Shown: positions 3 through 19,768 of the stretch, in pieces
Layout: every line of letters starts with the position of its first letter
Position numbering within the stretch: position 1 is the first letter of the stretch
Virus record (IMG/VR): IMGVR_UViG_3300030450_001570
Coordinates: 349 to 22,497 of that record
From: a virus
Strand: one strand, 5' to 3'
Length of the DNA: 22,149 nt
Position numbers and translations under genes: made by a program
Notes under the pieces: model-generated
Told to the model about the DNA's origin: nothing
Seen by the model: the letters and a program-made list of their open reading frames with translations, nothing else
Databases searched by the model: none

Positions 3-320
3 GGATCAAAGAACTTATTAGGCATTGGATCAAAAGGACAACAAAAGCTACATCCAATGGTTGAGTTAGTTATAAAGCTAGAAGATAAAGTATTAAAGCT
101 AGAAAACGAGCTTGGACTTACACCACTAGCTAGACAAAGACTAGGTATTGCCTTTGGCGAGGCATCAATGTCAATTCTTGATCTACAAAAGTTTTTGGAT
201 AATGATTGGGATGACTACGATGATCCACGACTAATCATGCTTGAAGATGATGGACAACCTTTACCAAAGGTAAAAAAGGTTGATAAGGAAACAGGCGAGA
301 TAACTTATGAAGAAGAATGA
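3..320 (+). CDS. terS: Small terminase subunit, P27-like (5' partial)
   Basis: The reading frame is open to the left edge, so the gene starts outside the window; an internal ATG at 57 is probably not the true start. The visible part has a coiled-coil-like stretch (LEDKVLKLENELGL) followed by LTPLARQRLGI, which is typical of the C-terminal half of P27-family small terminases. It ends in an acidic tail. The small terminase recognises phage DNA and recruits the large subunit. The large-terminase gene lies downstream but is separated from it by a methyltransferase gene, which is unusual since the two are normally adjacent. The assignment rests on this motif and on the position. Confidence 0.82.
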   Translation, partial: GSKNLLGIGSKGQQKLHPMVELVIKLEDKVLKLENELGLTPLARQRLGIAFGEASMSILDLQKFLDNDWDDYDDPRLIMLEDDGQPLPKVKKVDKETGEITYEEE

Positions 321-384
321 AGATGATGGACATGTACCTTTATGCTGTAAATGTTCATTACATTGTAGGTGTATAGATGAATAA
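307..384 (+). CDS. Cys-rich 25-aa micro-ORF
   Basis: This ATG-initiated ORF uses the third frame. It overlaps the end of the small terminase gene by 14 nt and the start of the methyltransferase by 8 nt, so it bridges the gap exactly. The product carries five cysteines in a tight cluster, CCKCSLHCRC, followed by an acidic end. The spacing could bind a metal, but the peptide is very short. No function is recognised. The evidence is its fit between two coding regions and its unusual composition; it could also be chance. Confidence 0.4.
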   Translation: MKKNEDDGHVPLCCKCSLHCRCIDE

Positions 385-391
385 TCAAATA
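377..391 (+). repeat. 15-bp direct repeat, left copy
   Basis: ATGAATAATCAAATA occurs here and again at 1029-1043. With the three or four bases before it, 18 of 19 positions match. Here the repeat holds the TAA stop of the upstream micro-ORF and the ATG start of the methyltransferase gene. At the right copy it holds the stop of the methyltransferase gene and the start of the large terminase gene. Confidence 0.85.
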
Positions 392-1036
392 AACCATGTA
401 AAAGCAGATTGTTTAGATTATTTACCAACATTAGATAATGAAAGTATACAACTTGCTATGTTTTCGCCACCATACTTTAATTCTGAAAAAAAATATCAAA
501 GAGGTGGTGGTTTCCATAATAAAGTTCCTATTGGTGAGCCATTGTTTGATATTTTAGAAGTTTTTGAAATATTAAAAGAGAAAATAAAAGATGAGGGTTT
601 TATTTGTATGAATATTGCTTTTTCTTATAGTGAGGGAAAAATAAATAGAGTTGGGGAGCTGATAAGGCAAATTGAAAGAAGAACAGGTTGGCATAATGTT
701 GATAAGATTTATTGGCATAAAACAAATCCAATTCCATTAAAAGGAAGATTAACAAACTCTGTTGAAACAATAGAAGTGTTTTCAAAATATCCCTTAATTA
801 AATATCCAAAAAAAATAAACTATGAACACAACTTTATTGAAACAGCAGTAGCAGGTAATTCAAAAACAAATAATAAACAAAAAGCATATCCTATTGAGTT
901 GCCTTTAAAGTGTGTTGATATATTTTCTAATGAAAATGATCTAGTTATTGATCCATTTGAGGGTAGTGGAACAACAGGCAGAGCTTGTGAGCAACTAAAT
1001 AGAAGATACATAGGAATTGATTTAATAAATGAATAA
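377..1036 (+). CDS. Beta-class DNA methyltransferase (N4-cytosine or N6-adenine)
   Basis: The 219-aa protein has the catalytic motif IV SPPY at residues 30-33 and the AdoMet-binding motif I DPFEGSGTT at 192-200 near the C-terminus. This IV-before-I order defines the beta class of amino-methyltransferases. SPPY is commonest in N4-cytosine enzymes, but N6-adenine cannot be excluded. The region around residues 90-140 (GWHNVDKIYWHKTNPIP and following) is the likely target-recognition part. No restriction endonuclease is adjacent, so it is probably a solitary phage enzyme protecting DNA from host restriction. It overlaps the large terminase start by 8 nt and is flanked by a 15-bp direct repeat, suggesting insertion as a cassette. 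Confidence 0.9.
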   Translation: MNNQINHVKADCLDYLPTLDNESIQLAMFSPPYFNSEKKYQRGGGFHNKVPIGEPLFDILEVFEILKEKIKDEGFICMNIAFSYSEGKINRVGELIRQIERRTGWHNVDKIYWHKTNPIPLKGRLTNSVETIEVFSKYPLIKYPKKINYEHNFIETAVAGNSKTNNKQKAYPIELPLKCVDIFSNENDLVIDPFEGSGTTGRACEQLNRRYIGIDLINE

Positions 1037-1043
1037 TCAAATA
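1029..1043 (+). repeat. 15-bp direct repeat, right copy
   Basis: This is the second copy of ATGAATAATCAAATA (left copy 377-391). It encodes the MNNQI start of the large terminase and contains the TAA stop of the methyltransferase. The methyltransferase therefore also begins MNNQI, although the two proteins are unrelated. Confidence 0.85.
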
Positions 1044-2477
1044 GTTTTACCAAGTACAAAAGGCAGAGATGTTGTCAGGTTTATTGAAAGGTGCTGTGTT
1101 CATGGCGAGGGCGACTTTTATGGAAAACCCTTTTTATTAGATGAATGGCAAAAAAAGATACTGTTTGAACTATACGAAACAAAACCTGATGGAACAAGAA
1201 AGTACAGAGAGGCATTGATTGGTATGCCAAAAGGAAATGGCAAGACAGCTTTAATTGCCTGTATTGGATTATTTGAATTAATCGGTGCAGGTGTTACTTC
1301 GCCACTTGTTGCTATGGCAGGTGCATCAAAAGAACAAGCAGGACTTTGTTTTAACACCATGAGAGCGATGTGTGAAAATAGTCCTGTATTACAAAAGTTT
1401 ACAGAATGTTACGAAAATGAAATACAACTTAAAGGAAGTGCAGGTAGGGCTTATAGAGTTTCGGCAGACTTTAAAACAGCAGAGGGTGGTAGAAATTCAA
1501 CTTTTATTGCTGATGAAATACACGAATGGTCTAATGAACGACTTGAAAGAGTGCATTATGTTATGGCTAACAACACAGCTAAAAGACAAGATGGTTTAGT
1601 GTTGAACATTACAACAGCAGGTTATGATAAAAACACACTTGCAGGGCGTATGTACCAAAGAGGCAAAAAGATACAAACAGGCGAGGTTACTGATGATAAC
1701 GAGTTTTACTTTCATTGGATAGAGGCAGAGCCAACTGATGATGTAAATGATCCTGAAGTATGGAAGAAAGTTAATCCTGCTGTTCAAAATGGTTGGTGGC
1801 AGTTAGATAACCTAAAGCGTAGGCATAAATCATTACCGATTAATGAATTTACTAGATACCACTTAAATACTTGGACAAGAACAAAAGAGGATAGTTGGTT
1901 GCCTGATGGTGTATGGCACGAACAAGCAACAGAGAATTTGCAATTTGATAAAGATGCACCAATGTTTTTAGGTGTGGATATGGCTTTAAAGCATGACAGC
2001 GTTGCAGTAGCCCAAGTCCAAGAAAGAGATGGTTTTTACTATACAACAGCAAGAATTTGGCTACCTAGTGATACAGGTATATATTATTCAGAAGTTGAAC
2101 AGCATATTATTGATCTATGTACACAGTTCAATGTTCAAGAAGTTGCCTATGATCCTGCCTTTTTTGAAAGGTCTGCACAAGAGTTAGTAGATAGAGGTAT
2201 TGAAATGGTTGAGTTTCCACAAACAGGTAAAAGAATGATCCCTGCTTGTGGTAATGCGTATGACATGATTGTTGGAAGAAAGATTAAACATCCTAATTAC
2301 GAAACATTTACAGATCAAGTATTGTCAGCATCTCAACGACAAACTGATAGTGGATGGCGATTATCAAAAGGAAAGTCAAAAAGAAAGATTGATGCCTGTA
2401 TTGCAATGGTTATGGCTTTGGATAGAGCAACTGCACCTGAAGTTGCAGAGGCAGAAGTTGGTATAGCTGAATGGTAG
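1029..2477 (+). CDS. terL: Terminase large subunit
   Basis: This 482-aa protein is the ATPase/nuclease motor that packages DNA through the portal. The Walker A motif GMPKGNGKT lies at residues 65-73. Walker B with its catalytic acid is FIADEIHEW at about 159-167. The nuclease domain has FLGVDMALKHDS near residue 320 and a C-terminal acidic segment, KIDACIAMVMALDRA, near 453-467. Length and motifs fit the HK97/Terminase_1 group. The start overlaps the methyltransferase stop (ATGAATAA) and the stop overlaps the next methyltransferase start (ATGGTAG), so the genes are probably translationally coupled. Confidence 0.97.
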   Translation: MNNQIVLPSTKGRDVVRFIERCCVHGEGDFYGKPFLLDEWQKKILFELYETKPDGTRKYREALIGMPKGNGKTALIACIGLFELIGAGVTSPLVAMAGASKEQAGLCFNTMRAMCENSPVLQKFTECYENEIQLKGSAGRAYRVSADFKTAEGGRNSTFIADEIHEWSNERLERVHYVMANNTAKRQDGLVLNITTAGYDKNTLAGRMYQRGKKIQTGEVTDDNEFYFHWIEAEPTDDVNDPEVWKKVNPAVQNGWWQLDNLKRRHKSLPINEFTRYHLNTWTRTKEDSWLPDGVWHEQATENLQFDKDAPMFLGVDMALKHDSVAVAQVQERDGFYYTTARIWLPSDTGIYYSEVEQHIIDLCTQFNVQEVAYDPAFFERSAQELVDRGIEMVEFPQTGKRMIPACGNAYDMIVGRKIKHPNYETFTDQVLSASQRQTDSGWRLSKGKSKRKIDACIAMVMALDRATAPEVAEAEVGIAEW

Positions 2478-3220
2478 CAAACCTATATAATGGCGATTGC
2501 TTAGAAGTTATGCAGGATATTCCTAATAACTCAATAGATTTTATTTTAACTGATTTACCTTATGGAACTACACAATGTAAATGGGATAATATTATTCCTT
2601 ATGATCCAATGTGGGAACAATTAAAAAGAATTAGGAAAGAAAAAACTGCTGTTGCTTTGTTTGGTAACGAGCCATTTAGTAGTCATTTAAGGTTATCAAA
2701 TATAAATCAATATAAATATGATTGGAAATATAAAAAATTAATTGCAAGTAATTTTGCATCGGCTAAATATCAACCAATGAAACATATTGAGGACATTATG
2801 ATATTTGGAAAAGGAAGACTTAATTATTACCCAATAAAACAACCTCGCTCTGAAAGTGGTAAAAATAGAATTGAAGCAGGTTACAAATATAATTCAAAAA
2901 AAGGTGGCGATTATATTGGGGGTATTAAAAGAAATAATACTACTAGCAATTATGATAGAAATTTTAAATATCCTGAAGATATACAAACATTTAACAACAG
3001 AGCCAAAGGGGATAGAGGATTGCACCCAACCCAAAAACCTATAAAACTTCTAGAGTATTTAATAAAAACTTACACAAAAGAAAACGAAACTGTACTTGAT
3101 TTTACTATGGGATCAGGATCAACAGGCGTAGCTTGTAAAAATACAAACAGAGATTTTGTAGGTATTGAATTACAAAAAGAATACTTTGACATTGCAAAGG
3201 AAAGAATTGAAACTTTATAA
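2471..3220 (+). CDS. Beta-class DNA methyltransferase, tandem copy 1
   Basis: The 249-aa protein has motif IV TDLPYG (DLPYG 28-32) and motif I VLDFTMGSGSTG at 208-219, with HPTQKP before it. This arrangement is typical of phage N6-adenine (or N4-cytosine) methyltransferases of the DLPYGTT...KWD type. It is a close paralogue of the next gene. DNA is identical over 32 nt (2534-2565 versus 3264-3295) and over 41 nt (2660-2700 versus 3390-3430). The central part, about residues 85-175, differs strongly, for example KLIASNFASAKYQPM against KTYKTNFLNANKMPL. That region is likely to set DNA target specificity. No restriction enzyme partner is seen. Confidence 0.92.
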   Translation: MVANLYNGDCLEVMQDIPNNSIDFILTDLPYGTTQCKWDNIIPYDPMWEQLKRIRKEKTAVALFGNEPFSSHLRLSNINQYKYDWKYKKLIASNFASAKYQPMKHIEDIMIFGKGRLNYYPIKQPRSESGKNRIEAGYKYNSKKGGDYIGGIKRNNTTSNYDRNFKYPEDIQTFNNRAKGDRGLHPTQKPIKLLEYLIKTYTKENETVLDFTMGSGSTGVACKNTNRDFVGIELQKEYFDIAKERIETL

Positions 3221-3917
3221 TAACGATTGCTTAGAAGTAATGCAGTACATACCAGACAACTCTATAGATTTTATTTTAACTGATTTACCTTATGGTAAAA
3301 CAGATAATAAATGGGATAGTTCTATTGATATAAAATTTATGTGGAAAGAAATTAAAAGAATTAGAAAAGAAAATACTGTAATAGCACTATTTGGTAACGA
3401 GCCATTTAGTAGTCATTTAAGGTTATCAAACATAAATGAATATAAATATGATTGGGTTTGGAAAAAAACATATAAAACAAATTTTTTAAATGCAAACAAA
3501 ATGCCTTTAAGATGTTTGGAAAACATTTTAATATTTTACAAAAAAAATAAATATTATCCACAGAATTTAAAAATTAAAAATAAAATTAAAGATAGGGGAA
3601 TTAAAGGCACAGGTAATAATTATATAACTACAACTAAAAATCGTTATACACAAAAATTTACAAATTATCCAACTGAATTGCTTGAATATAAATCTGTTCA
3701 TAAACCAATACATCCAACTCAAAAGCCAACAGAACTTCTTGAATACTTAATTAAAACATACACATTAGAAAATGAAGTAGTTTTAGATTTTACAATGGGA
3801 AGTGGATCAACAGGTGTAGCTTGTGTTAATACAAACAGAAATTTTATAGGAATAGAGTTGGATAGAGATTATTTTAAGATTGCACAAGAGAGAATAGGAC
3901 AAAAGGTTATAGAGTAA
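3207..3917 (+). CDS. Beta-class DNA methyltransferase, tandem copy 2
   Basis: I chose the TTG at 3207 because it follows an AAAGGAAAG ribosome-binding site at 6-nt spacing. It also gives a start (KLYNNDCLEVM) that lines up with the paralogue upstream (NLYNGDCLEVM). A longer TTG-initiated frame from 3165 runs deep inside the previous gene and is less likely. The 236-aa protein has DLPYG at 26-30, HPTQKP, and VLDFTMGSGSTG near 192-203. Its middle (NFLNANKMPL...ILIFYKK) looks like the common phage form of this family. The gene overlaps the previous one by 14 nt. It probably modifies a different sequence from copy 1, since the recognition region has diverged. Confidence 0.92.
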   Translation: MKLYNNDCLEVMQYIPDNSIDFILTDLPYGKTDNKWDSSIDIKFMWKEIKRIRKENTVIALFGNEPFSSHLRLSNINEYKYDWVWKKTYKTNFLNANKMPLRCLENILIFYKKNKYYPQNLKIKNKIKDRGIKGTGNNYITTTKNRYTQKFTNYPTELLEYKSVHKPIHPTQKPTELLEYLIKTYTLENEVVLDFTMGSGSTGVACVNTNRNFIGIELDRDYFKIAQERIGQKVIE

Positions 3918-3929
3918 GGGGAATATACA

Positions 3930-4085
3930 ATGAATAATATAAAAGAGTTAATAACAAATGCGATTGAGTTAGTCGCCTTATGGATTATGGTGTATGGTCT
4001 TTGGATGATATACGAGCCATTAGGATTTATTGGCATGGGTGCAGGGTTATTAATTATTAGCTATGGATATACGAGGAACAAATAA
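3930..4085 (+). CDS. Small membrane protein, two predicted TM segments (51 aa)
   Basis: This short ORF starts at ATG 3930 after a good AAGGGGAA ribosome-binding site and ends one base before the portal start codon. After a short polar N-terminus it has two hydrophobic segments, roughly residues 13-28 (LVALWIMVYGLWMIY) and 31-47 (LGFIGMGAGLLIISYGY), then a basic tail TRNK. No family is recognised. Small membrane proteins at this place in phage genomes are usually of unknown role. A holin-like function is possible on topology alone, but nothing else supports it. Confidence 0.72.
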   Translation: MNNIKELITNAIELVALWIMVYGLWMIYEPLGFIGMGAGLLIISYGYTRNK

Positions 4086-5279
4086 TTGAGCTTTATTTTT
4101 AACGAACAGCGAGGTCAAACAGATTACACATTAGCTGAAATGTTGGCTACTAGGGGTGCAGGTCATGCGAATTGGTCAGGCGAAAAAGTGGATCAATACA
4201 CAGCTTTAGGGATTAGTGCTGTTTTGTCATGTGTTTCACTATTAGCAGACAGTATCGCATCTTTACCTATGAGGGTACAAAGGTGGGATAGTGGAAGAAA
4301 GATTTATGTTGATAGTCCTACTTGGGTTAAAAAGCCAAATGCTAACCAACAAAAGTTCGGTTTTATTCATCAAGTTATGGCATCTTTAGCTTTACATGGA
4401 AACGCATTTATCTTTGTTGATAGAGATAGACAGGGTAGAGTTGTTGCAGTTGAAAACATACATCCTGATAATGTCAAAGTACACATGAGAGGTATGGAAA
4501 AAGTGTATGAGATGAAAGATAAAACAATTTTAACAAATAATAATATTTTACATATAGTGTGGTTTTCCTATCCACAAGAGGCAATAGGTTTATCCCCTTT
4601 GAAGTTGCAAAAAAACACTTTCGGTCTTGCACTTGCAATGGAAAGGCATATAAACCAATGGTATTCACAGGGTGCAACACCATCCTCTGTTTTGGAAACA
4701 GATAGAGAACTTACAGCTGAACAGGCATCATCCTTACAGCAGACTTGGACAAGTCATCATACAAGATCAAGAAAACCTGCTGTTCTTACAGGTGGGCTTA
4801 AATGGAAAGCTGTTAGTGCAGAGGCAGGGGAAGAATTAATACAAGCTAGGGATCAAATAACCCAAGAGATTGCAAGAGTGTTTAGAATACCTAGTTATCT
4901 CATTAACTCAAAGGGCGATAGTCAAACTTACTCAAATATAGAAAGTGCAGGTATTAATTTCGTTAGACATACACTACTTGCATGGATTAGCAGACTAGAG
5001 GACAATTTATCAACTCTAGTTGCAGGACAATCTTTTATTTCTTTTGATACCTCTTATTATTTAAGAGGCGACCAACTTTCAAGAATAAGAGCAGGTCAAG
5101 CAGGTATTTCATCAGGAATATTTACACCGAATGAAGTAAGAGAGTGGTTTGACTATGAGCCATACGAAAATGGGGATGAATTTTATTTAGGCATACAGGG
5201 TGCAGTTGCTAATGATGGGCAACCACTTGGAACAGATGTTGGGTCGCCATACGATGAAATGGATAAAAACAATGAGTAG
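4086..5279 (+). CDS. Portal protein, HK97 family
   Basis: The 397-aa protein forms the ring through which DNA enters and leaves the capsid and on which the terminase docks. Typical portal features are YTALGISAVLSCVSLLADSIASLP near residues 38-60, ALHGNAFIFVDRD, the HPDNVKV segment, and IPSYLINSKGDSQTYSNIES near 270-290. The start is TTG directly after the previous stop, with GAGG 9 nt upstream. The C-terminus is acidic and low in complexity. The order terminase, portal, protease, capsid supports the call. Confidence 0.96.
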   Translation: MSFIFNEQRGQTDYTLAEMLATRGAGHANWSGEKVDQYTALGISAVLSCVSLLADSIASLPMRVQRWDSGRKIYVDSPTWVKKPNANQQKFGFIHQVMASLALHGNAFIFVDRDRQGRVVAVENIHPDNVKVHMRGMEKVYEMKDKTILTNNNILHIVWFSYPQEAIGLSPLKLQKNTFGLALAMERHINQWYSQGATPSSVLETDRELTAEQASSLQQTWTSHHTRSRKPAVLTGGLKWKAVSAEAGEELIQARDQITQEIARVFRIPSYLINSKGDSQTYSNIESAGINFVRHTLLAWISRLEDNLSTLVAGQSFISFDTSYYLRGDQLSRIRAGQAGISSGIFTPNEVREWFDYEPYENGDEFYLGIQGAVANDGQPLGTDVGSPYDEMDKNNE

Positions 5280-6522: not shown

Positions 6523-7845
6523 ATGTTAGAAAAACTTATTGAAAGTAGGAACGAGGAAAGAGGTCTGCTTGATGATTTGTTAGGGAAAGTTGAAAAAGAA
6601 GAAAGAACTGAACTTAACGAAGAAGAAAACGCAGAATTTGATACTCGTTCAGAAAAAATTAAAGCTCTTGATGAAAGAATTGCAGAACTTGAAGAATTAG
6701 CTGAAAGAGATGCAAAGATTGCAGAGAGCAGACAAATACTAGATGTAAAAGAGGAAACTGTTGCACCTGTCGTTACTGAAATGAAAGAAGATGGGGTTTA
6801 TGAAAATCCAAAGAGGTCATTTCTTACTGATGCGTATAACGCAGAATTTAATGGCGATGTAGAGGCAAGAGAAAGAATTAACTACTCACAAAGACAAGAA
6901 AATGAAACAAGAGATGTTGCAACTTCAAACTTTGCAGGGTTAGTTATCCCTCAATACCTAGTAGATCAAACAGCAGAAAATTTGAAAGCAGGAAGTCCAT
7001 TTTATAATGCAATTCCTAAATTCCAATTACCTGATGATGGTATGACAATGCACATCAGCAGAGTTACCACAGGAACAGCAGTAGGTGCGCAATCATCTGA
7101 AAATTCAGCAGTATCTGAAACAGATATTGATGACACAGACTACACCTTTCCTGTAACAACTTATGCAGGTGCACAAGATGTATCAAAACAAGCTATTGAC
7201 AGAGGTACAGGCACAGAGGATGTTTTAATGGCAGACCTTATGGGTGCTTATTACACAGCTGTTGATAATGCAATGATTAATGCTGATGAAAGTTCAGGAA
7301 CTATTAAAGGTCTAAAGAACATTTCAGGCATTACATCTACAACTTGGACAGATGCAAGTCCGACAGGTGCAGAGTGTGTTAGCAAGTTTGCGAAACTTAT
7401 TAGCGACTTTACATCTGCTAGGTATGCAAGTCCTGATCTAATTGTTATGCACCCAAGAAGATGGGCATATTTAATTGGATCACTTGATGGCGATAGCAGA
7501 CCATTTGTATTGCCTATGGGTAATAATCCATCCAACGCAGTTGGTATTGGCTCTATTGGCTATTCAGCAGTAGGAACACTATTTGGTATTCCTGTTATTG
7601 CTGATGCTAATATTCAAACCGATGCAGGATCAGGTAACAATGAAGATAACGCATTTGCTGTTAAGACTTCAGACCTACCATTTTTTGAAAGTGCATCAGC
7701 ACCTTTCAGATTGAGGTTTGAGGCAACAGCACCTAAATCACTACAAATTACAGTAGTTGTATTTAACTATGTCGCTTTCGGTGCAGGTAAGCAACCAAAA
7801 TCTATTGGTATGCTTTCAGGTACAGGCATGGCAGGTGTTCTCTAA
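6523..7845 (+). CDS. Major capsid protein, HK97 fold
   Basis: The 440-aa protein builds the capsid shell. Residues 1 to about 85 are a highly charged coiled coil (the delta or scaffold domain), removed by the upstream protease. The shell domain follows, starting near ATSNFAGLVIPQYLVDQTAENLKAGSPF and including TYAGAQDVSKQAID, LIVMHPRRWAYLIG and the C-terminal LRFEATAPKSLQITVVVFNYVAFG. These are typical of HK97-type capsid proteins. A long hairpin lies just after the stop. Confidence 0.97.
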   Translation: MLEKLIESRNEERGLLDDLLGKVEKEERTELNEEENAEFDTRSEKIKALDERIAELEELAERDAKIAESRQILDVKEETVAPVVTEMKEDGVYENPKRSFLTDAYNAEFNGDVEARERINYSQRQENETRDVATSNFAGLVIPQYLVDQTAENLKAGSPFYNAIPKFQLPDDGMTMHISRVTTGTAVGAQSSENSAVSETDIDDTDYTFPVTTYAGAQDVSKQAIDRGTGTEDVLMADLMGAYYTAVDNAMINADESSGTIKGLKNISGITSTTWTDASPTGAECVSKFAKLISDFTSARYASPDLIVMHPRRWAYLIGSLDGDSRPFVLPMGNNPSNAVGIGSIGYSAVGTLFGIPVIADANIQTDAGSGNNEDNAFAVKTSDLPFFESASAPFRLRFEATAPKSLQITVVVFNYVAFGAGKQPKSIGMLSGTGMAGVL

Positions 7846-7855
7846 TACCTAATTT

Positions 7856-7892
7856 TTTATGTGCAGTAGTCATTGTGATTACTGCACATAGA
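7856..7892 (+). other. Long hairpin after the capsid gene
   Basis: Arm ATGTGCAGTAGTCA (7859-7872) pairs with TGATTACTGCACAT (7876-7889) over 14 base pairs, including one G-T wobble, around a 3-nt loop. Up to three more pairs extend outwards. There is no T-run after it, so it is not a standard terminator. It may stabilise the 3' end of capsid mRNA or lower read-through. Confidence 0.7.
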
Positions 7893-7909
7893 TAAGGTAC
7901 AGGATAAAA

Positions 7910-8098
7910 ATGGCAAAAAAAGAAATAAACCAAAGTTTAATAGATGGATATAACAGCGAACTTAAATCAGCTGTTCAACAAAACCGACCTAAAAAATATA
8001 TTGATGATATTAAAAAAGCATTAGTTGATGCAGGTGGAAAGATTGAAACAGCAGATAAGAAAGTTAAAGCTGAAACTACATCTAAAAAGACAAAGTAA
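7910..8098 (+). CDS. Small lysine-rich protein downstream of capsid (62 aa)
   Basis: This short ORF lies between the capsid and connector genes. The first 40 residues look helical (SLIDGYNSELKSAVQQNRPKKYIDDIKKALVDAG), followed by a lysine/threonine-rich tail (DKKVKAETTSKKTK). GGATA upstream is a weak ribosome-binding site. No family is recognised with certainty. Small basic proteins at this site in actinophages are usually head-associated or unknown. Confidence 0.72.
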   Translation: MAKKEINQSLIDGYNSELKSAVQQNRPKKYIDDIKKALVDAGGKIETADKKVKAETTSKKTK

Positions 8099-8111
8099 TT
8101 AGCTAGTAGTC

Positions 8112-8723
8112 ATGTCAGATTATATTACATCTAATAACTTTAAAACGCTAAACAACATACCAACTAGCGATACACAGGATGATGTTGCGATTAGTTCTGC
8201 AATCTCATCTGCGAGTAGAGCTATTGATGCGTATTGTGGTAGGCGATTTTATTTAGATGGTGGTGTGTCATCACATGACTACAAAGCTATAAACAAAGAT
8301 TGGATTTATGTGGATGATTTCTCTACAACAACAGGTCTTGTAGTTAAGTTTGACACAGGCGACAATGGTACATTTGATAAAACAATTAGTTCATCAGATT
8401 ATGAAGTTTTACCATTTAACCAAATTATTGGTGGCATTGAGAGCTGTGCATACTACATAGTCCACATGGTAGATGATGATCTACCAATTACAGGTGCAAG
8501 ACCAAGAGTACAGGTTACTGCTAAATGGGGTTGGGCAAGTGTGCCTGATCCAATAACACAAGCAACATATTTATTAGCATCAGAATACTTTTTTGCAAAG
8601 AACGCACCTTTTGGGATTGCAGGTATAAGTGAGGCAGGTTACTCAATTACAACGAGAACTAGCCCAATGGTAAGAAGATTGATTGAGCCATTTAAAAAAG
8701 GCAATCAATTTGGGGTATATTAA
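8112..8723 (+). CDS. Head-tail connector (HK97 gp6-like adaptor)
   Basis: The 203-aa protein begins with an N-terminal segment, SSAISSASRAIDAYCGRRFY, characteristic of gp6-like adaptors that bind beneath the portal. It continues with a beta-rich insert (DFSTTTGLVVKFDTGDNGTF) and the conserved VQVTAKWGWASVPDPITQATYLLASEYF. The C-terminus is MVRRLIEPFKK. Position after the capsid gene supports an adaptor role in head completion. Confidence 0.88.
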   Translation: MSDYITSNNFKTLNNIPTSDTQDDVAISSAISSASRAIDAYCGRRFYLDGGVSSHDYKAINKDWIYVDDFSTTTGLVVKFDTGDNGTFDKTISSSDYEVLPFNQIIGGIESCAYYIVHMVDDDLPITGARPRVQVTAKWGWASVPDPITQATYLLASEYFFAKNAPFGIAGISEAGYSITTRTSPMVRRLIEPFKKGNQFGVY

Positions 8724-8945
8724 ATGAATTTAAAATTAGATGCTAAAGCAATAGGTGGTGTATTAAGTGCATTAGTCATTTCATTAATTAGTTGGTTGTT
8801 TAGATCAGTTCAACAATTATCAATACAGATAGAAGTTTTAGAGGCAAAAGTAATTGCAAGTGAAAATAAGATTAATGAAATATTAACTGTCATATCAGGT
8901 GTAAACGATAACATCACAGAAATTATTTGGAAAATAGGGGGTTAG
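8724..8945 (+). CDS. Small membrane protein with TM segment and coiled coil (73 aa)
   Basis: The ATG follows the connector stop directly. Residues about 10-26 (IGGVLSALVISLISWLF) form one predicted membrane segment. The rest has a regular heptad-like pattern (VQQLSIQIEVLEAKVIASENKINEIL), suggesting a coiled coil, and ends in IIWKIGG. This topology recalls XhlA-like or holin-associated proteins with the order reversed, but no family is certain. Its place between connector and tail terminator is unusual for a membrane protein. Confidence 0.78.
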   Translation: MNLKLDAKAIGGVLSALVISLISWLFRSVQQLSIQIEVLEAKVIASENKINEILTVISGVNDNITEIIWKIGG

Positions 8946-9611: not shown

Positions 9612-10343
9612 ATGGCGATATTTGCTTTAACAGATGGTAGATGTTACATAGGTGGATATGACTTATCCGACCATATTGTAGGTATGAACTTGAATTTAAC
9701 AAGTGAAGAACTTGATACAACAACAATTAATTCAGGTGGGTACAGGTCAAGAGCAGGTGGACTTAAAGATGCTCAATTTACTGCTAATGGTTATTTTGAG
9801 GCAGGTGCTAATAAACCTGATGCTTTACTAGGTGCATCAACAGGATCAGAACATATCGTTACAGTTATGGCAGATAGTGGTGCAGGTAATACTTCTTATT
9901 TCTTTAAAGCTAGACAGTTTGAATATACATTGCTTGGTGCAGTTGGGGAATTAACACCATTTAATATTTCAGCTAGTCAATCAGCAGATCAACCTGTAAA
10001 AGCAACACAGATGAATGATGATAGTGCAACTATTACTGCTAATGGAAATACAACAGGTAGGCAGTTAGGTGCAGTAACTTCTGCTCAAAAAGTCTATGCC
10101 TCACTTCATGTATGGTCTGTTGCAGGAACTTCAACCCCAACACTCACAGCTAAGATACAATCCGATGACAATTCTAGTTTTACAAGTGCAACCGATAGAA
10201 TAACTATGTCATCAGCAACAGCAATTACTTCTGAATACAAAACAGCTGATGGTGCAATTACCGATGACTATTGGCGAGTAAATTGGACACTATCAGGAAC
10301 AAGTCCTGTATTCAAAGCAATCGTGTCAATCGGCATCGCATAG
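9612..10343 (+). CDS. Major tail (tube) protein, long paralogue with C-terminal domain
   Basis: The 243-aa protein has an N-terminal tube domain of about 130 residues: IGGYDLSDHIVGMNLNLTSEELDTTTINSGGYRSRAGGLKDAQ and following. It matches the shorter protein at 11079-11489 (VDLSDHVRQVSLSLTAEELDTTAMSATGYRTRAGGLKDGS). A second domain (about 140-243; VYASLHVWSVAGTSTPTLTAKIQSDD, then YWRVNWTLSGTSPVFKAIVSIGIA) is common on phage tail proteins and is probably exposed on the tail surface. A strong terminator lies just after the gene. It could be a decorated tube subunit made beside the short one. Confidence 0.85.
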   Translation: MAIFALTDGRCYIGGYDLSDHIVGMNLNLTSEELDTTTINSGGYRSRAGGLKDAQFTANGYFEAGANKPDALLGASTGSEHIVTVMADSGAGNTSYFFKARQFEYTLLGAVGELTPFNISASQSADQPVKATQMNDDSATITANGNTTGRQLGAVTSAQKVYASLHVWSVAGTSTPTLTAKIQSDDNSSFTSATDRITMSSATAITSEYKTADGAITDDYWRVNWTLSGTSPVFKAIVSIGIA

Positions 10344-11078: not shown

Positions 11079-11489
11079 ATGGCAGTTTTTGCATTTACAG
11101 ATGCAAGTGTAACTATTAATTCTGTTGATCTGTCAGATCATGTTAGGCAAGTTTCATTGTCCTTAACAGCAGAAGAATTAGACACAACAGCAATGTCTGC
11201 AACAGGTTATAGAACTAGAGCAGGTGGTTTAAAAGATGGATCACTTACTGTGGAATTTAACCAAGACTTTGCATCATCAGAGATTGATGCCACATTTAAT
11301 GGCATTATAGGAACAGTAGTAGCATTCGTTGTTAAACCAACAAGTGGCTCTGTATCATCAACAAATCCTAGTTATTCAGGAAATGTTTTGATTACAGAAT
11401 ATATGCCACTAGCAAACGCAGTTGGCGATTTAGCAACAGTATCTATGACTTTCCCAACAAGTGGTGCTGTAACAAGAGCCACAAGTTAA
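11079..11489 (+). CDS. Major tail tube protein, short paralogue
   Basis: The 136-aa protein matches the N-terminal part of the long tail protein and lacks its C-terminal domain. It has the LSDHVRQVSLSLTAEELDTTAMSATGYRTRAGGLKDGS core typical of actinophage tail tubes, then beta strands ending in LATVSMTFPTSGAVTRATS. It forms the tube through which DNA exits. It has its own strong ribosome-binding site in a repeated leader, consistent with high expression. It is probably the main tube subunit. Confidence 0.88.
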   Translation: MAVFAFTDASVTINSVDLSDHVRQVSLSLTAEELDTTAMSATGYRTRAGGLKDGSLTVEFNQDFASSEIDATFNGIIGTVVAFVVKPTSGSVSSTNPSYSGNVLITEYMPLANAVGDLATVSMTFPTSGAVTRATS

Positions 11490-13959: not shown

Positions 13960-15180
13960 ATGGGTTTACCTGCTGTAAGAGTTCGTATTGGTTTCAACCA
14001 AGATGTTTTAGAGTTAGATGACTTAATAAGAGGTAAATTAGATTTTAACAAGTTAGCAGGAACAGTTGTTTACACCGATGTTACATCAAAGACATTAAGT
14101 GTTTCAACAAACAGGGGTAGATCAAGAGATGTTGATAATTTTACAGTTGGCTCTGCAACTATTAGTTTAGATAATCTTGATGCAAGGTTTGATCCAACAA
14201 ACGCAAGTGGTGCATATTATGGTGGCATTGAGCCATTAATGGCAGTAATTATTGATGCGACAATAGATGGTGGATCTAACTATAAACCTATATTTACAGG
14301 ATTTGTGAATACATGGATTGTTAATTATCCAAATAGTGCAGACAGCACAGTAACAGTAACTTGTTCTGATGCTTTTATGAAATTAGCTAACACACAGCTT
14401 AATTCGCAATCTGTTTCAAGTGCATTAACAGGTGCTTTTATAAATTCAATACTAGATAACGCATCTGTTGCTTTTTCCCCTGATAGAAGTATTGAAACAG
14501 GCAACTCAACAATGGCATCACAAACATTATCTGAAAATACCTTATCAGCTATTCAGACAGCAGAGTTTTCAGAGCAGGGTGCAGTATTTATAGCAAAGGA
14601 TGGTGTGTTTACTTTTAAAGAAAGACACAGTACTTATCCATCTACAATTAGTGCAACTTTCTCTGATGATGGCTCTGATTTGCCTTATAATCGTATGGAT
14701 CAGATACTAGGTAATGACTTTCTTTATAACAATGTAAGGTTAAAAAGAGAGGGTGGGTCGGAACAAACTGCATCTAATAGTGCATCACAGGCAAAATATC
14801 TTATTCGTACTTTTTCAAGACAAGATTTATACAATAACTCTGATGCTGATGTATTAAGCACAGCAAATCTTATTTTGGCAAAATACGCAGAAGTTGATCC
14901 AAGATTTTCAGATGTTGAAGTAGATTTAGAAAATTTAACAACAGGACAACAGGGAACAGTTTTAGATTTAGAGTGTATTGATACAGTTAAAGTTGAGATC
15001 ACACCTGTTGGTACTTCAACGCAGGTTTCAAGATTTTCAATTATTGATGGCATCCAATGGACAATCACACCTAATGAACAAAAGGTTACTTTTTTAACTT
15101 CTGATAGTTCGGATGTGCAGTTTTTGATCTTAAACAGTTCTACATTTGGTTTACTAAACACAGGAAAGTTGGGGTATTAA
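13960..15180 (+). CDS. Distal minor tail protein
   Basis: The 406-aa protein is directly after the tape measure, where actinophages encode the distal tail or hub protein. The N-terminal 140 residues have beta-rich patterns: YTDVTSKTLSVSTNRGRSRDVDNFTVGSATISLDNLDARFDPTN and IFTGFVNTWIVNYP. A central part has LSENTLSAIQTAEFSEQGAVFIAKDGVFTFKER, a pattern common in siphophage tail-tip proteins. The C-terminus has VSRFSIIDGIQWTITPNEQKVTFLTS. Role inferred from family and position. Confidence 0.85.
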   Translation: MGLPAVRVRIGFNQDVLELDDLIRGKLDFNKLAGTVVYTDVTSKTLSVSTNRGRSRDVDNFTVGSATISLDNLDARFDPTNASGAYYGGIEPLMAVIIDATIDGGSNYKPIFTGFVNTWIVNYPNSADSTVTVTCSDAFMKLANTQLNSQSVSSALTGAFINSILDNASVAFSPDRSIETGNSTMASQTLSENTLSAIQTAEFSEQGAVFIAKDGVFTFKERHSTYPSTISATFSDDGSDLPYNRMDQILGNDFLYNNVRLKREGGSEQTASNSASQAKYLIRTFSRQDLYNNSDADVLSTANLILAKYAEVDPRFSDVEVDLENLTTGQQGTVLDLECIDTVKVEITPVGTSTQVSRFSIIDGIQWTITPNEQKVTFLTSDSSDVQFLILNSSTFGLLNTGKLGY

Positions 15181-15249: not shown

Positions 15250-15708
15250 ATGGCAGGTGCAGGATATAAGTTATTTGCATCAGGCGATGTCTTAACAGCA
15301 TCCGATGTGAATACATATCTACAAGAACAAACAATAATGGTCTTTGCAAATGATAGTGCAAGAGATACAGCTTTAAATTCTGTTAAGTCAGAGGGAATGT
15401 TTGTTTATATAACAGCAGATAACACTTTACAATATTACGATGGGTCAAGTTGGAACGATACAAGTTTAACTGCTGATATTACAGGGATCACAACAGGATC
15501 AACTTCAGGTTTATCAGGTGGTGCAACAAGTGGCACAGTAACCCTAGTAATTTCCCCAAACTTAGCAACTTCAGCAACTGTTGCAGGATCAGATATAGTT
15601 TTAATTGGCGATGCAGATGACAGCAATAATTTAAAAAAGACAACAGCACAAGATATTGCAAATTTAGCAGGTGGTGTTTCGTTAGGTTTAGTAATAGCCC
15701 TAAGTTAA
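15250..15708 (+). CDS. Tail fibre/minor tail protein (152 aa)
   Basis: The N-terminus GYKLFASGDVLTASDVNTYLQEQTIMVFANDSARDTAL and then SEGMFVYITADNTLQYYDGSSW is a widespread phage tail-tip/fibre domain. A low-complexity Thr/Ser/Gly-rich segment follows (TGITTGSTSGLSGGATSGT). The C-terminal part (GSDIVLIGDADDSNNLKKTTAQDIANLAGG) is also common in phage fibres. First gene of the fibre module, with a strong ribosome-binding site in the repeated leader. Confidence 0.85.
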   Translation: MAGAGYKLFASGDVLTASDVNTYLQEQTIMVFANDSARDTALNSVKSEGMFVYITADNTLQYYDGSSWNDTSLTADITGITTGSTSGLSGGATSGTVTLVISPNLATSATVAGSDIVLIGDADDSNNLKKTTAQDIANLAGGVSLGLVIALS

Positions 15709-15720
15709 GAAAGGAAAAAG

Positions 15721-16047
15721 ATGGCAGATACATTACATTCAGTACAAGGTGTTTTAGGCACAGGTAGTACAGCTATTCTTGATGCAGTTGCATCAAGCAC
15801 AACTGAAACTGTAATTGGTTTAACTTTATCAAACATAAGTGGATCAAGTGCAGATGTTACAGTTGATCTTAGTATTACAAAGTCAGGTGGCTCGTTAAGA
15901 AAAGTTCTAAATGATGTCAGCTTACCTTTTGGAACTACTATCACAATGTCTACAAAAATGGTATTGGAAACAGGCGACACTATGCAAGGACTTGCAAGTT
16001 CAGCATCAAGTGTTGATTTTAATTTAGCTTATTTGAAACAAACCTAA
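15721..16047 (+). CDS. Small virion/tail-associated protein (108 aa)
   Basis: A beta-rich protein with pattern TETVIGLTLSNISGSSADVTVDLSITKSGG and LPFGTTITMSTKMVLETGDTMQGLASSASSVDFNLAYL. It resembles small beta-sandwich structural proteins that are frequent in marine phages. AAGGAAAAAG is the ribosome-binding site. Its location between two fibre-type genes supports a tail-tip or fibre-associated role; the precise role is unknown. Confidence 0.75.
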   Translation: MADTLHSVQGVLGTGSTAILDAVASSTTETVIGLTLSNISGSSADVTVDLSITKSGGSLRKVLNDVSLPFGTTITMSTKMVLETGDTMQGLASSASSVDFNLAYLKQT

Positions 16048-16058
16048 AGGGGTAATTT

Positions 16059-16685
16059 ATGTCCTATATAGGTACACAACCAAATAATGTAAAACAGAAT
16101 ATTGGTTTATATACACCAAATGATATTACTGCTTTAACCAAAGATGGTCATTGGGGTGGCTCAACAGAATTAATTACAAGTGGTAGCTCTGATAACTCTG
16201 CACAAACTTTAGAATTTAACGATTGTCTTGTAGGCAATTATGATGTTTATTTAATTCAATGGAACAACTTTGTACCTGCTAATGATGAAAATATGCTTTA
16301 CTTTAGATTAAAAAATGCAAGTGGCGAAATAACAAGTGGATATCAATATGCTAATTTTAATAATACATCAAGTGGTGGAAGTGGCAATAATAAATCTACA
16401 AGTGCTACTTATTTAAGAATTATGGGTGGTGGTGGCTCTAGTACAGGCGAAAATGCTAATGGGCATATTTATATTTATGGTGCTAGTACTTCCGAAAGAA
16501 CATTAGCTACTTATTCAACAACTTATATAGACCAAAATGCTACTTATAACTCAATTATGGGTGGTGGTGTTTATGATACAGCAGAAGTTTCAACAGGTAT
16601 TATGTTTAGAAATATTAGTTCAGGTGGAACATTAGGAAATATAAATACTCTTGATGTATCTATTTATGGTGTGAAAAAAATATGA
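16059..16685 (+). CDS. Fibre/adhesin paralogue, trio 1 member 1 (adaptor-bearing)
   Basis: This 208-aa protein begins with an adaptor-like segment of about 40 residues (SYIGTQPNNVKQNIGLYTPNDITALTKDGHWGG). It is then followed by the family domain: SAQTLEFNDCLVGNYDVYLIQWNNFVPANDENMLYFRL, a Gly-rich loop, and GGGVYDTAEVSTGIMFRN with the end VSIYGVKKI. Member 1 of the second trio (17733) has a matching adaptor and GGYDTTEIINGI. A receptor-binding or tail-decoration role is inferred from family type and place. The stop overlaps the next start (ATGA). Confidence 0.82.
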   Translation: MSYIGTQPNNVKQNIGLYTPNDITALTKDGHWGGSTELITSGSSDNSAQTLEFNDCLVGNYDVYLIQWNNFVPANDENMLYFRLKNASGEITSGYQYANFNNTSSGGSGNNKSTSATYLRIMGGGGSSTGENANGHIYIYGASTSERTLATYSTTYIDQNATYNSIMGGGVYDTAEVSTGIMFRNISSGGTLGNINTLDVSIYGVKKI

Positions 16686-17218
16686 GTAATTTAAGATTAA
16701 TAAAACAAACAGCAACTTCTTCAGGGATAACAAGTGTATCTATGACAGATGTCTTTTCTTCTGACTACGATATTTATTGTGTAACTGTTGCTCAAACAAC
16801 TTATGATGTTACGAACACAGATGTTATTGCTTTAAAATTAAGATTTATAAATTCAAGTGGCTCAATAATTAGTGCAAGTAATTATTCTAGTGCCAATATG
16901 CATATGAAAGCTGAAACAACTAAAGATGAAGATAAGTTTACAAATGGCACTTACTCTTATTCAGGTGCAATAATTGGAAATTATGAAAATGGTGGTGGCG
17001 TTCATTGGATATATAACCCATACAATAGCGATAGATATTCATTTGTAACTTTTGAGGGTGGCGGTGGCTATGATAGTTCAAGCAATAAAATGAGGTCGCA
17101 AAAAGGTATAGGCGTGTTAGAACAACAAGTAAGTATGACAGGTGTAAATTTTTATTCTTCTAATGCTTCTAATACATTTTCTGCTTATGTAACAGTTTAT
17201 GGATTGAGGAAAGACTAA
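16682..17218 (+). CDS. Fibre/adhesin paralogue, trio 1 member 2
   Basis: The 178-aa protein lacks the adaptor and is the family domain alone: SMTDVFSSDYDIYCVTVAQ, then VHWIYNPYNSDRYSFVTFEG, KGIGVLEQQVSMTGVNFYSS and VTVYGLRKD at the end. Its closest relative in the window is member 2 of trio 2 (18379), which has WIYNPTDSSEYTYITYAS. The start overlaps the previous stop (ATGA) and its stop overlaps the next start (TAATG), so the three are probably translated together. Confidence 0.8.
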   Translation: MSNLRLIKQTATSSGITSVSMTDVFSSDYDIYCVTVAQTTYDVTNTDVIALKLRFINSSGSIISASNYSSANMHMKAETTKDEDKFTNGTYSYSGAIIGNYENGGGVHWIYNPYNSDRYSFVTFEGGGGYDSSSNKMRSQKGIGVLEQQVSMTGVNFYSSNASNTFSAYVTVYGLRKD

Positions 17219-17730
17219 TGGCAGGTAGTTTAATTCAAATAGCAACAAATACAGTTAGTGGAACTTCAACTAATTCAATAGATTTAGTTGGAACAACTAC
17301 TGATGATGTATATATGGTAGCTATAACTAATGCAAGTACAACTTCAGATGGACAAATTAGAACAAGAGTTTTAGTTAGTAGTAGTGCAGATACAAGTTCC
17401 GAATACGACCAAGCAAGTAAAGCTCTTATGGATAATGCAGGGTTTGATAATGACGCACAAGCAAATGCAGACCATTGGCGATTTTTTTTCACAGGTAATC
17501 AAACTGCTGAAACACAATCAGCAATACTTTATTTATATAATTTTAATAGCAGTTCAACATATAGTTTTGTACAAAATGAAGTAGCAGGTTATACAAACTC
17601 GCCAAAACTTTATGGATTGCAGGGTGGTGCAGTACAAACAGAGGCACAAAGTTGTAATGGCATTCAATTTTATGCCTCTAGTGGAAATTTAAGTGATGGA
17701 AGTCAATTTACCTTATATAAGGTGGTGTAA
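17218..17730 (+). CDS. Fibre/adhesin paralogue, trio 1 member 3
   Basis: The 170-aa protein has the family pattern DDVYMVAITNASTTSDGQIRTRVLVSSSADTSSEYDQA, LYLYNFNSSSTYSFVQNEVAG and ends NGIQFYASSGNLSDGSQFTLYKVV. It best matches member 3 of trio 2 (18897), which ends NGITIFYSSGNIASGEFKLYG. AAGGTGG at its end serves as ribosome-binding site for the next trio. No catalytic motif; a beta-sandwich binding domain is inferred. Confidence 0.8.
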   Translation: MAGSLIQIATNTVSGTSTNSIDLVGTTTDDVYMVAITNASTTSDGQIRTRVLVSSSADTSSEYDQASKALMDNAGFDNDAQANADHWRFFFTGNQTAETQSAILYLYNFNSSSTYSFVQNEVAGYTNSPKLYGLQGGAVQTEAQSCNGIQFYASSGNLSDGSQFTLYKVV

Positions 17731-17732
17731 TT

Positions 17733-18386
17733 ATGAGTGAATATGGATATATCCCTGAAAGCCCTGAGCAAAAATTTGGTCAAAATTCAGGAATACTGAC
17801 ACCGAATGATATTTATGATCTAGATTTAGCAGGTAAGTGGACTAATTGGACACCTGCTTTAGAACATATACAAACTCAAAGCACTTCAACAAGTGCATCA
17901 ACAATAGATTTCACATCAATAGGAAATTATGATGTATATTTATTAACTGCACAAAATTTATACAGTACAACAGGTGCAAGTGTTGATATAACATTATCAA
18001 ATGATGGTGGCAGTACTTGGGAAGGTGGAACAAAATATGATAGAGCTTTTCAGGGCGTAAGAAGTAGTAGTGGAAGTTATGAAGAAAAAAATTCAGGCGA
18101 TGCTGAATGGCAATACGCATTAAGTTCTGATGACAACAGTTCAACATATTCGCAGGGTGGTGTTGTTTGGTTTTATAATCTTAACAATTCTGCAAAACAC
18201 TCTTATTGCACAATTAATAATATATCTTACAATCAATATCTAAACGAAATATATTCTTTTTTTGGTGCAGGTGGTTATGACACTACTGAAATAATAAATG
18301 GTATAAGGGTGCAGATGAGTAGTAGTAAAACTTTTTCAAGTACAGATGGGCGAGTGAGCTTATATGGATTGGCTAATTATGGGTAG
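17733..18386 (+). CDS. Fibre/adhesin paralogue, trio 2 member 1 (adaptor-bearing)
   Basis: The 217-aa protein has an adaptor at its N-terminus (EYGYIPESPEQKFGQNSGILTPNDIYDLDLAGKWTNW), recalling that of the gene at 16059 (NIGLYTPNDI...GHWGG). The domain follows: STIDFTSIGNYDVYLLTAQ, VVWFYNLNNSAKHSYCTIN, GAGGYDTTEIINGIRVQMSS and the end VSLYGLANYG. Only this gene and 16059 in the series carry the adaptor, so each trio seems to have one protein able to attach to the tail. Confidence 0.82.
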   Translation: MSEYGYIPESPEQKFGQNSGILTPNDIYDLDLAGKWTNWTPALEHIQTQSTSTSASTIDFTSIGNYDVYLLTAQNLYSTTGASVDITLSNDGGSTWEGGTKYDRAFQGVRSSSGSYEEKNSGDAEWQYALSSDDNSSTYSQGGVVWFYNLNNSAKHSYCTINNISYNQYLNEIYSFFGAGGYDTTEIINGIRVQMSSSKTFSSTDGRVSLYGLANYG

Positions 18387-18900
18387 TTTAAAATTTCTTA
18401 AAAGTGCAAGTGGATCAAGTGTTAGTACATTAAGTTTTACAGGTTGTTTTCCAACTAATTTCAATACTTTTGTAATGACCTTAGAAGATTTAGATATATC
18501 AGCAGGTAATGCTGAAATGCAAATGAGATTTATAGATAGTAGCCAAGCAGTTATAAGTGATACAGAATACGATTATGCTTATAGAAATGTAAAATCTTTT
18601 GGTACTTATACAGGTATAAAAGACACAGGCGTAGCTCAAATACAAGGTTTAATATGGTTAGATGATTTTGTATATTCGGCAGGTGCTTTAACTGTTTGGA
18701 TTTATAACCCAACAGATAGTTCAGAATATACTTATATTACCTACGCAAGTTCTTCAGATGTTGATAGTACTTCATCAACAGGTTATGGAACAAAAGGAAC
18801 TGCTGTACATAAATCTGAAGAATTGATAACAGGTGTTAATTTATTACTTAGTAGTGGAACAATGGATAAAATTAAAGTCAATATGTATGGTGTAGTATGA
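18379..18900 (+). CDS. Fibre/adhesin paralogue, trio 2 member 2
   Basis: I chose ATG 18379 (8-nt overlap with the previous stop) over an in-frame ATG at 18364, because the sister proteins start at the equivalent place (GSLKFLKSASGSS). The 173-aa protein has NFNTFVMTLEDLDISAGNAEMQMRFIDSS, VWIYNPTDSSEYTYITYAS, KGTAVHKSEELITGVNLLLSS and the end VNMYGVV. It is the closest relative of 16682-17218. The stop overlaps the next start (ATGA). Confidence 0.8.
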   Translation: MGSLKFLKSASGSSVSTLSFTGCFPTNFNTFVMTLEDLDISAGNAEMQMRFIDSSQAVISDTEYDYAYRNVKSFGTYTGIKDTGVAQIQGLIWLDDFVYSAGALTVWIYNPTDSSEYTYITYASSSDVDSTSSTGYGTKGTAVHKSEELITGVNLLLSSGTMDKIKVNMYGVV

Positions 18901-19415
18901 GTGCTTTAGTTTTATTAGATAGTGCAACAGCAAGTTCAAGTGCAAGTGTAACTTTAGGTGCAGGGGATTGGGATACCAATTATAATGTTTATTTAGTTAC
19001 GATAGATAAAGCTGTACCTGCAAATGATAGTGTAAATTTAGTTTGCAGATTATTAATTAGTGGTACGCCTGATAGTAGTGCTAGTTACGACCACGCTAAT
19101 TATGTATTAAAAGGCGAAACAACATTTGCAGATGAGGGTGGTGTAAACGCTAATGAAGTTACTTTAGGTGGTGCAGGAACAGGTACAGGCGAAAGTGTAA
19201 GTGGCAATATACATCTTTTCAAAATGAATGTATCAGGAACATATAAGTCAATGACTTTTGATACAACTTATCTTAATTCAAGTGCAAACCTAAGAAGTAA
19301 AGTAGGTGGTGCATTTTTGACAAATACTGCTGTTGCAAATGGAATAACAATATTTTATTCTAGTGGCAATATTGCTAGTGGGGAATTTAAGTTGTATGGA
19401 TATGCAATAAGTTAA
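18897..19415 (+). CDS. Fibre/adhesin paralogue, trio 2 member 3
   Basis: The 172-aa protein has NYNVYLVTIDKAVPANDSVNLVCRLLISG, a Gly-rich part (GGAGTGTGESVSGN), IHLFKMNVSGTYKSMTFDTTYL and the end FYSSGNIASGEFKLYGYAIS. It is similar to 17218-17730 in its last 30 residues. It ends the array. The short span to the next gene carries a good ribosome-binding site (AAAGGGGG). Confidence 0.8.
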   Translation: MSALVLLDSATASSSASVTLGAGDWDTNYNVYLVTIDKAVPANDSVNLVCRLLISGTPDSSASYDHANYVLKGETTFADEGGVNANEVTLGGAGTGTGESVSGNIHLFKMNVSGTYKSMTFDTTYLNSSANLRSKVGGAFLTNTAVANGITIFYSSGNIASGEFKLYGYAIS

Positions 19416-19450: not shown

Positions 19451-19768
19451 ATGGGAAAAACTTTAGATGAATTTAAGGTAGAGGCACAATCAGAGATAGA
19501 TGCTGAAAAACCTTTATACGCACAAGTTAATAACGAAAAGCGACCTTTCACAGATGCAGAATACGACCAAGCTGTATTGGATCGTGCTAATTATAAACTT
19601 GATGAGCAAGACAATGGATATATCAGAGCAAGGCAAGAGGCATTCGCAAGTATTGGGGATCAGTTAGATCAACTATATTGGGATATTGATGCAGGAAAGC
19701 TAGATAAGACAGGTGCTTGGTACAAAGCAATCAAGAAAGTAAAAGATGACAACCCTAAACCGAGTTAG
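19451..19768 (+). CDS. Virion-associated type protein (105 aa)
   Basis: The protein has NEKRPFTDAEYDQAVLDRANYK, then ARQEAFASIGDQLDQLYWDIDAGKLDKTGAWYKAIKKVKDDNPKP. The segment IGDQLDxLYxD...WYKAIKxVKxxNP is a recurring pattern in marine phages, located by fibre genes, where it is thought to be structural or fibre-associated. Function is not known. Confidence 0.78.
   Translation: MGKTLDEFKVEAQSEIDAEKPLYAQVNNEKRPFTDAEYDQAVLDRANYKLDEQDNGYIRARQEAFASIGDQLDQLYWDIDAGKLDKTGAWYKAIKKVKDDNPKPS

Follow-up and report, generated by a model that had tools for sequence, protein, structure and literature searches.

Two trios of paralogous genes in a marine siphophage tail module probably encode two different heteromeric receptor-binding spikes

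Six consecutive genes in the tail module of a siphophage probably give rise to two different receptor-binding spikes, one from each trio of genes, in which the subunits A, B and C form a hetero-oligomer anchored by A. That each trio makes a heteromeric spike with a single anchored subunit, as an earlier note on this DNA proposed, is well supported by indirect evidence, namely the covariation between the subunits and the way the trios are inherited. The best single reading of the stoichiometry is most likely a 1:1:1 A:B:C heterotrimer. Textbook phage fibres are made of three copies of a single protein, and receptor-binding fibres are almost always taken as homotrimers. On balance, we also favour the view that a large group of marine siphophages makes obligate A:B:C heterotrimers that originate from an ancient gene triplication, most of these phages carrying two heterotrimers with six exchangeable surfaces.

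The window (the whole stretch of 22,149 nucleotides analysed here) is part of a virus record of 22,497 bases, which encodes siphophage structural genes (terminase, portal, head protease, major capsid and major tail proteins, and tape measure). The module is located 3' of the tape measure and tail genes and 5' of a fibre-assembly-type gene, which fits a fibre-tip or receptor-binding module, and all features of the module and its flanks described here are on the plus strand. Upstream are a tail protein gene (13,960-15,180, phrog_5313; as a query it fetched 22 related contigs), a conserved gene with homologues at the equivalent place in many relatives (15,250-15,708) and, directly 5' of the first A gene, p108 (15,721-16,047), which encodes a conserved protein of 108 amino acids. 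The next gene is a domain gene in all 67 p108 loci having more than 200 bases downstream. The first trio consists of A1 (member 1, 16,059-16,685), B1 (member 2, 16,682-17,218) and C1 (member 3, 17,218-17,730), and the second of A2 (member 4, 17,733-18,386), B2 (member 5, 18,379-18,900) and C2 (member 6, 18,897-19,415). The open frame of B2 runs from 18,364, and its start is probably the second ATG at 18,379 (MGSLKF...), within the stop region of A2. Members 1 and 2 overlap by 4 nt, members 2 and 3 by 1 nt and members 5 and 6 by 4 nt, with a gap of 2 nt between members 3 and 4; across the relatives, 135 of 160 A/B junctions and 157 of 175 B/C junctions overlap. Such overlapping stop and start codons imply coupled translation, which would help to yield equal amounts of the subunits, so the overlapping starts pointed out earlier are real and the equal amounts expected from them are consistent with the data. 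After the array follows a gene for a small protein (19,451-19,768, phrog_1787), whose family occurs directly 3' of many unrelated tail-fibre genes and which is therefore a likely fibre-assembly or chaperone protein; here it would probably aid folding or assembly of the spikes.

The six ORFs are genuine homologues in the order A-B-C-A-B-C. In an all-against-all BLASTP comparison the best partners were position-matched (71.6 bits for members 2 and 5, 71.6 for members 3 and 6 and 67.0 for members 1 and 4), although the pairing of members 1 and 4 is weak from the window alone because members 1 and 6 scored barely less (65.5 bits). The position-matched motifs are GGVYDTAE and GGYDTTE in members 1 and 4, WIYNPYNSDRYSFVT and WIYNPTDSSEYTYIT in members 2 and 5, and NGIQFYASSGN and NGITIFYSSGN in members 3 and 6; the ORFs, the motifs and the twice-repeated order of one adaptor-bearing and two short genes were thus all present as first described. 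With class profiles built from relatives (and including the window's own domains among the building sequences), each member favoured its positional class by 68 bits or more, and margins this wide for every member exclude chance resemblance. No Pfam family scored above its cut-off for the six ORFs, and no informative PHROGs family was found for them.

The module was compared across more than 100 related viral fragments, marine phage contigs fetched using the upstream tail protein, member 1, the small gene and p108, as well as variants of these queries; near-identical arrays were merged, and the contigs are still no random sample of phages. In a tree of 196 domains the positional labels A (positions 1 and 4 and the first of single trios), B and C required two changes, which is the minimum for three labels, and the class C clade had 99% support. 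Members at the same position therefore pair, as the earlier note had expected, and pairing of neighbours within a trio clearly fails. A smaller, more careful tree supported the C clade at 100/98 with A and B nearly clean, and placed unspecialised single-copy domains mostly outside the three classes; single domains with low scores and little class preference are found at the ends of stalked fibre proteins. Among complete arrays, 52 were ABCABC and 24 ABC, the latter count including two rows from L202, where the fourth gene of a single ABCABC array is broken. The sole irregular array (ACABC in L146) looks decayed or frameshifted; apart from it no complete array had 2, 4, 5 or 7 members, all truncated arrays were legal fragments, and the three consecutive similar genes always occurred together. 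A block duplication of three genes, as suggested earlier, holds true in kind, but the sequences place it as ancient and group-wide. A recent local duplication in the window phage was rejected, as the trios of the window have only about 30% identity to each other, at least 52 distinct arrays carry the double trio, and the split into A, B and C predates it.

Only members 1 and 4 have N-terminal extensions, of about 33 and about 42 residues, respectively; the other four members are without. The type-1 adaptor (16,059-16,157; MSYIGTQPNNVKQNIGLYTPNDITALTKDGHWG) was found only at position 1, on every first A behind p108, and the type-2 adaptor (17,733-17,858; MSEYGYIPESPEQKFGQNSGILTPNDIYDLDLAGKWTNWTPA) only at position 4, on every fourth gene, while no class B or C member among the relatives had an adaptor. 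A third type, M(S)PLGAARFGL, occurs in many single-trio phages. Because A alone carries the adaptor, a single A chain would dock the spike to the tail, and the two adaptor types at positions 1 and 4 would direct the spikes to two docking sites or give them two orientations. The adaptors are conserved, whereas whole members of the window have 25-94% identity with those of its nearest relatives and the body behind the adaptor is wholly replaced in L054 and L060; a conserved N-terminal adaptor with an exchangeable and highly variable C-terminal part is what is expected of a fibre-tip module. In L054, L060, L062 and L070 the second-trio slot is occupied by a single gene with the type-2 adaptor (E 2.5e-14 to 6.7e-13), a body of 31-33% glycine and its own small gene directly after, so here one fibre gene substitutes for the three genes of a trio, which speaks for the trio making up a single spike. 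We presume that this body is comparable to the Gly-rich adhesins of the T4-like gp38 type; the trio domains, in contrast, are not Gly-rich. With the Gly-rich body, the adaptor may be used in a different stoichiometry, which counts against the heterotrimer reading. Near a Gly-rich fibre gene in a relative without the trio, L013, there is a flavoprotein-like ORF of 361 residues (7747-8832; MKLAIIGKGTAGALALNHF), which we take to resemble a tryptophan-halogenase-type protein.

The trio also behaves as a unit of inheritance. Among 55 phages with both trios complete, the rank correlation of relatedness had a mean of 0.52 (0.46-0.60) between members of the same trio and of 0.12 (0.04-0.19) between trios. 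The adjacent C1 and A2 correlated at only 0.04 compared to 0.46 for A1 and C1, which are not neighbours; distance along the DNA thus fails to explain the trio-wise relatedness. The window and L057 illustrate this, with identities of 84/90/94% in trio 1 and 32/30/29% in trio 2. The adjacency of both sets in most phages having the module could suggest that all six proteins build one mixed hexamer or ring instead of two spikes, but we consider this extremely improbable, since the two trios show almost no correlation in relatedness, single-trio phages exist, trio 2 is replaceable in its entirety, and the main covarying pair described below is at background with the partner from the other trio. Single subunits can be exchanged, judging from L002, which shares A1 and B1 with the window at 93% identity and C1 at 51%, and this counts against the heteromer reading. 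Together with the high divergence between phages, such exchange would be expected if the trio were a gene cassette of three independent binding proteins, separately attached and broadening the choice of receptors. This is nevertheless very unlikely considering the strict multiples of three, class identities older than the divergence of the phages, the absence of adaptors from B and C, and covariation that is specific to the trio. Elsewhere in the group, the class C domains of L067 (7789-8295) and L083 (4106-4615) are almost the same in sequence (tree distance about 0.06), in phages whose tail proteins are distant from each other, which suggests a recent exchange of a single subunit.

Covariation between the subunits was analysed by mean-field DCA on 163 concatenated trios (effective number 152), comprising about 70,000 inter-gene pairs. 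There was one clear inter-gene outlier, column 137 of A with column 70 of B (A137-B70), with a score of 1.85 and the next pair at 1.29. In the window these columns correspond to A1 residue 167 (codon 16,557-16,559), predicted to face B1, and its covarying partner B1 residue 73 (16,898-16,900), and to A2 residue 177 (18,261-18,263) and B2 residue 74 in the frame from 18,364 (18,583-18,585). The residue combinations track size and polarity (F-L 76, Y-Q 12, Y-H 9, M-M 6, I-W 3 and H-Y 3). Mutual information of the pair was 0.64 within the same trio versus 0.22 across the two trios of one phage; the within-trio value exceeded all 2000 permutations in first and second trios separately, and the pair was at rank 1 by matched-minus-swapped information. 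Its rank was 1 among 22,496 pairs from first trios, 2 among 23,562 from second trios and 10 among 23,715 from the rest, three sets that are disjoint in sequence, with first and second trios coming from the same phages and their histories thus not fully independent. Among 21 tree-independent contrasts, an average of 14.4 went in the same direction and 1.1 in the opposite (p about 0.001); the contrast test alone fails correction for multiple pairs, and the claim of covariation is therefore carried by the replication across the sets. Covariation over all inter-gene pairs is weak, which counts against the heteromer reading and, as the pair was picked from so many, leaves some room for cassettes without physical coupling, the A-B signal being an artefact of phylogeny or linkage. 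We regard this as highly improbable, because the pair replicates in two disjoint sets, recurs on independent branches and disappears when the partner comes from the phage's other trio.

The partner of A137 is B70 and not residue 70 of A itself (DCA 0.19), and B70 does not have B's own residue 137 as its partner either (-0.03), which disfavours homotrimers. A second pair, B137-C123, ranked 2 in first trios, 5 in second trios and 4 on average. Columns 70, 137 and 123 appear to be on adjacent strands according to the couplings of neighbouring columns, and B thus seems to contact both A and C through one shared patch. No covarying C-A pair stood out in the inter-gene couplings, and a test of pseudo-threefold symmetry comparing direct and transposed coupling matrices was negative, both of which weigh against the heterotrimer; contact between C and A is something we infer. 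The fixed order, the co-inheritance of the trio and the A-B contact would also be explained by an anchored A homotrimer followed by homotrimers of B and C, stacked end to end in one fibre, and most known phage fibres are homotrimeric, as is gp24 of phage Pam3 (PMC9608196). We find such a stack unlikely: B and C lack a linker or stalk, A137 covaries with B70 in place of A70, and the covarying residues seem to form one patch per chain, with which B faces both A and C, not opposite ends.

AF2 models of members 1 and 3, predicted as monomers, are confident beta sandwiches (mean pLDDT 87.4 and 94.8, respectively). Viral structural matches include collagen-repeat, Stf-repeat and Gly-rich fibre proteins, and fibres with collagen or Stf repeats carry this fold at their tip; together with the unspecialised single copies on stalked fibre proteins, this speaks for a receptor-binding spike. 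When the fold was examined for likeness to C1q/TNF-like trimeric jelly rolls, the best matches to solved structures were C-terminal sandwich domains of GH32 proteins (Z 8.2 and 7.5), followed by galectins; the C-terminal domain of Pgp3 matched with Z 6.9. These middling matches are as suggestive of lectin-like sandwiches as of trimeric folds and so count against the heterotrimer, while a lectin-like role for the tip domain is plausible. By sequence profile, no credible match to a solved structure was found.

The closest precedent that we found is the tail of Dishui Lake virophage 2 (DSLV2), a capsid fibre resembling the tip of T4 gp37, which is reported to be a 1:1:1 heterotrimer of co-expressed proteins and to bind bacterial cells, and likewise derives from three consecutive genes of similar size (PMC12724248). 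Unlike the virophage tail, the present system belongs to a siphophage tail module, with an apparently different domain, one adaptor-bearing member per trio and usually two trios. In the open-access papers searched we found no tailed phage described with a three-paralogue spike, which is not proof that none exists. The gp24/gp25 system of Pam3, a homotrimeric fibre with a dedicated downstream chaperone (PMC9608196), similarly has a beta-sandwich tip encoded among the tail genes, with a small companion gene after it; there one gene makes all three chains, whereas here there are three class-specialised paralogues, two of them without an anchor. Gene 4 of Lederberg EXVC029P (QOI68897.1), an example of the tip domain in a marine phage fibre, belongs to the family of the trio domains (55.5 bits to class A and 50.3 to class C), with a p108-like protein nearby (weak match, E 3e-4). 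It differs from the trio members in being single-copy and unspecialised, its A and C scores being about 5 bits apart.

In the heterotrimer that we propose, A, B and C would be three ancient paralogues arranged next to one another about a pseudo-threefold axis, with B and C held through contacts with A and with each other. Most phages of the group having two different heterotrimers, a virion could show six distinct binding surfaces, exchangeable singly or as trios if the model is true; that these surfaces bind receptors we likewise infer. As the earlier note proposed, such sets could conceivably broaden the host range or counter changes in the receptor. A heterotrimer with three diverged faces would allow the surfaces to evolve separately while one adaptor keeps the docking constant. 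Automated annotation and structure prediction of receptor-binding proteins, which fold one protein as a homotrimer, would mis-model such spikes. Since phages with a single copy, with one trio and with two trios all exist today, the transition from a homomer to an obligate heteromer after gene triplication could be studied in this group.

No DNA similarity to deposited phages was found, and protein searches of the phage collection matched only H1 (MW202713.1) and Lederberg EXVC029P. The nearest relatives of the major capsid protein are in mycobacteriophages and the nearest terminase is that of a Pontimonas phage. A contig scan with member 4 as query gave no match and a first scan of genome contigs with p108 gave no relative; the genome collection yielded L300, a single ABCABC locus within a record titled Candidatus Actinomarina sp. 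AG-919-G14. Marine Actinobacteria (Ca. Actinomarina) are thus the probable host for at least some of these phages, and the phage contig in that record may represent infection, prophage or contamination. Other observations concern the surroundings of the module. The ABCABC contig L065 also has alternating fibre and small assembly-type genes (278-4389), including one single-copy tip domain (278-937). A protein 3' of the module in L016 (2715-4808), L021 (17,311-19,239) and L146 (10,029-11,741) begins with what resembles a signal peptide, contains a Thr-rich stretch and is acidic in its C-terminal half. In the window, 9612-10,343 and 11,079-11,489, about 0.7 kb apart, both match major tail protein families (phrog_9522 and phrog_4574), and three DNA-methyltransferase-like ORFs with SPPYF and DLPYG motifs (377-1036, 2471-3220 and 3165-3917) flank the terminase gene, the latter two being neighbouring paralogues.
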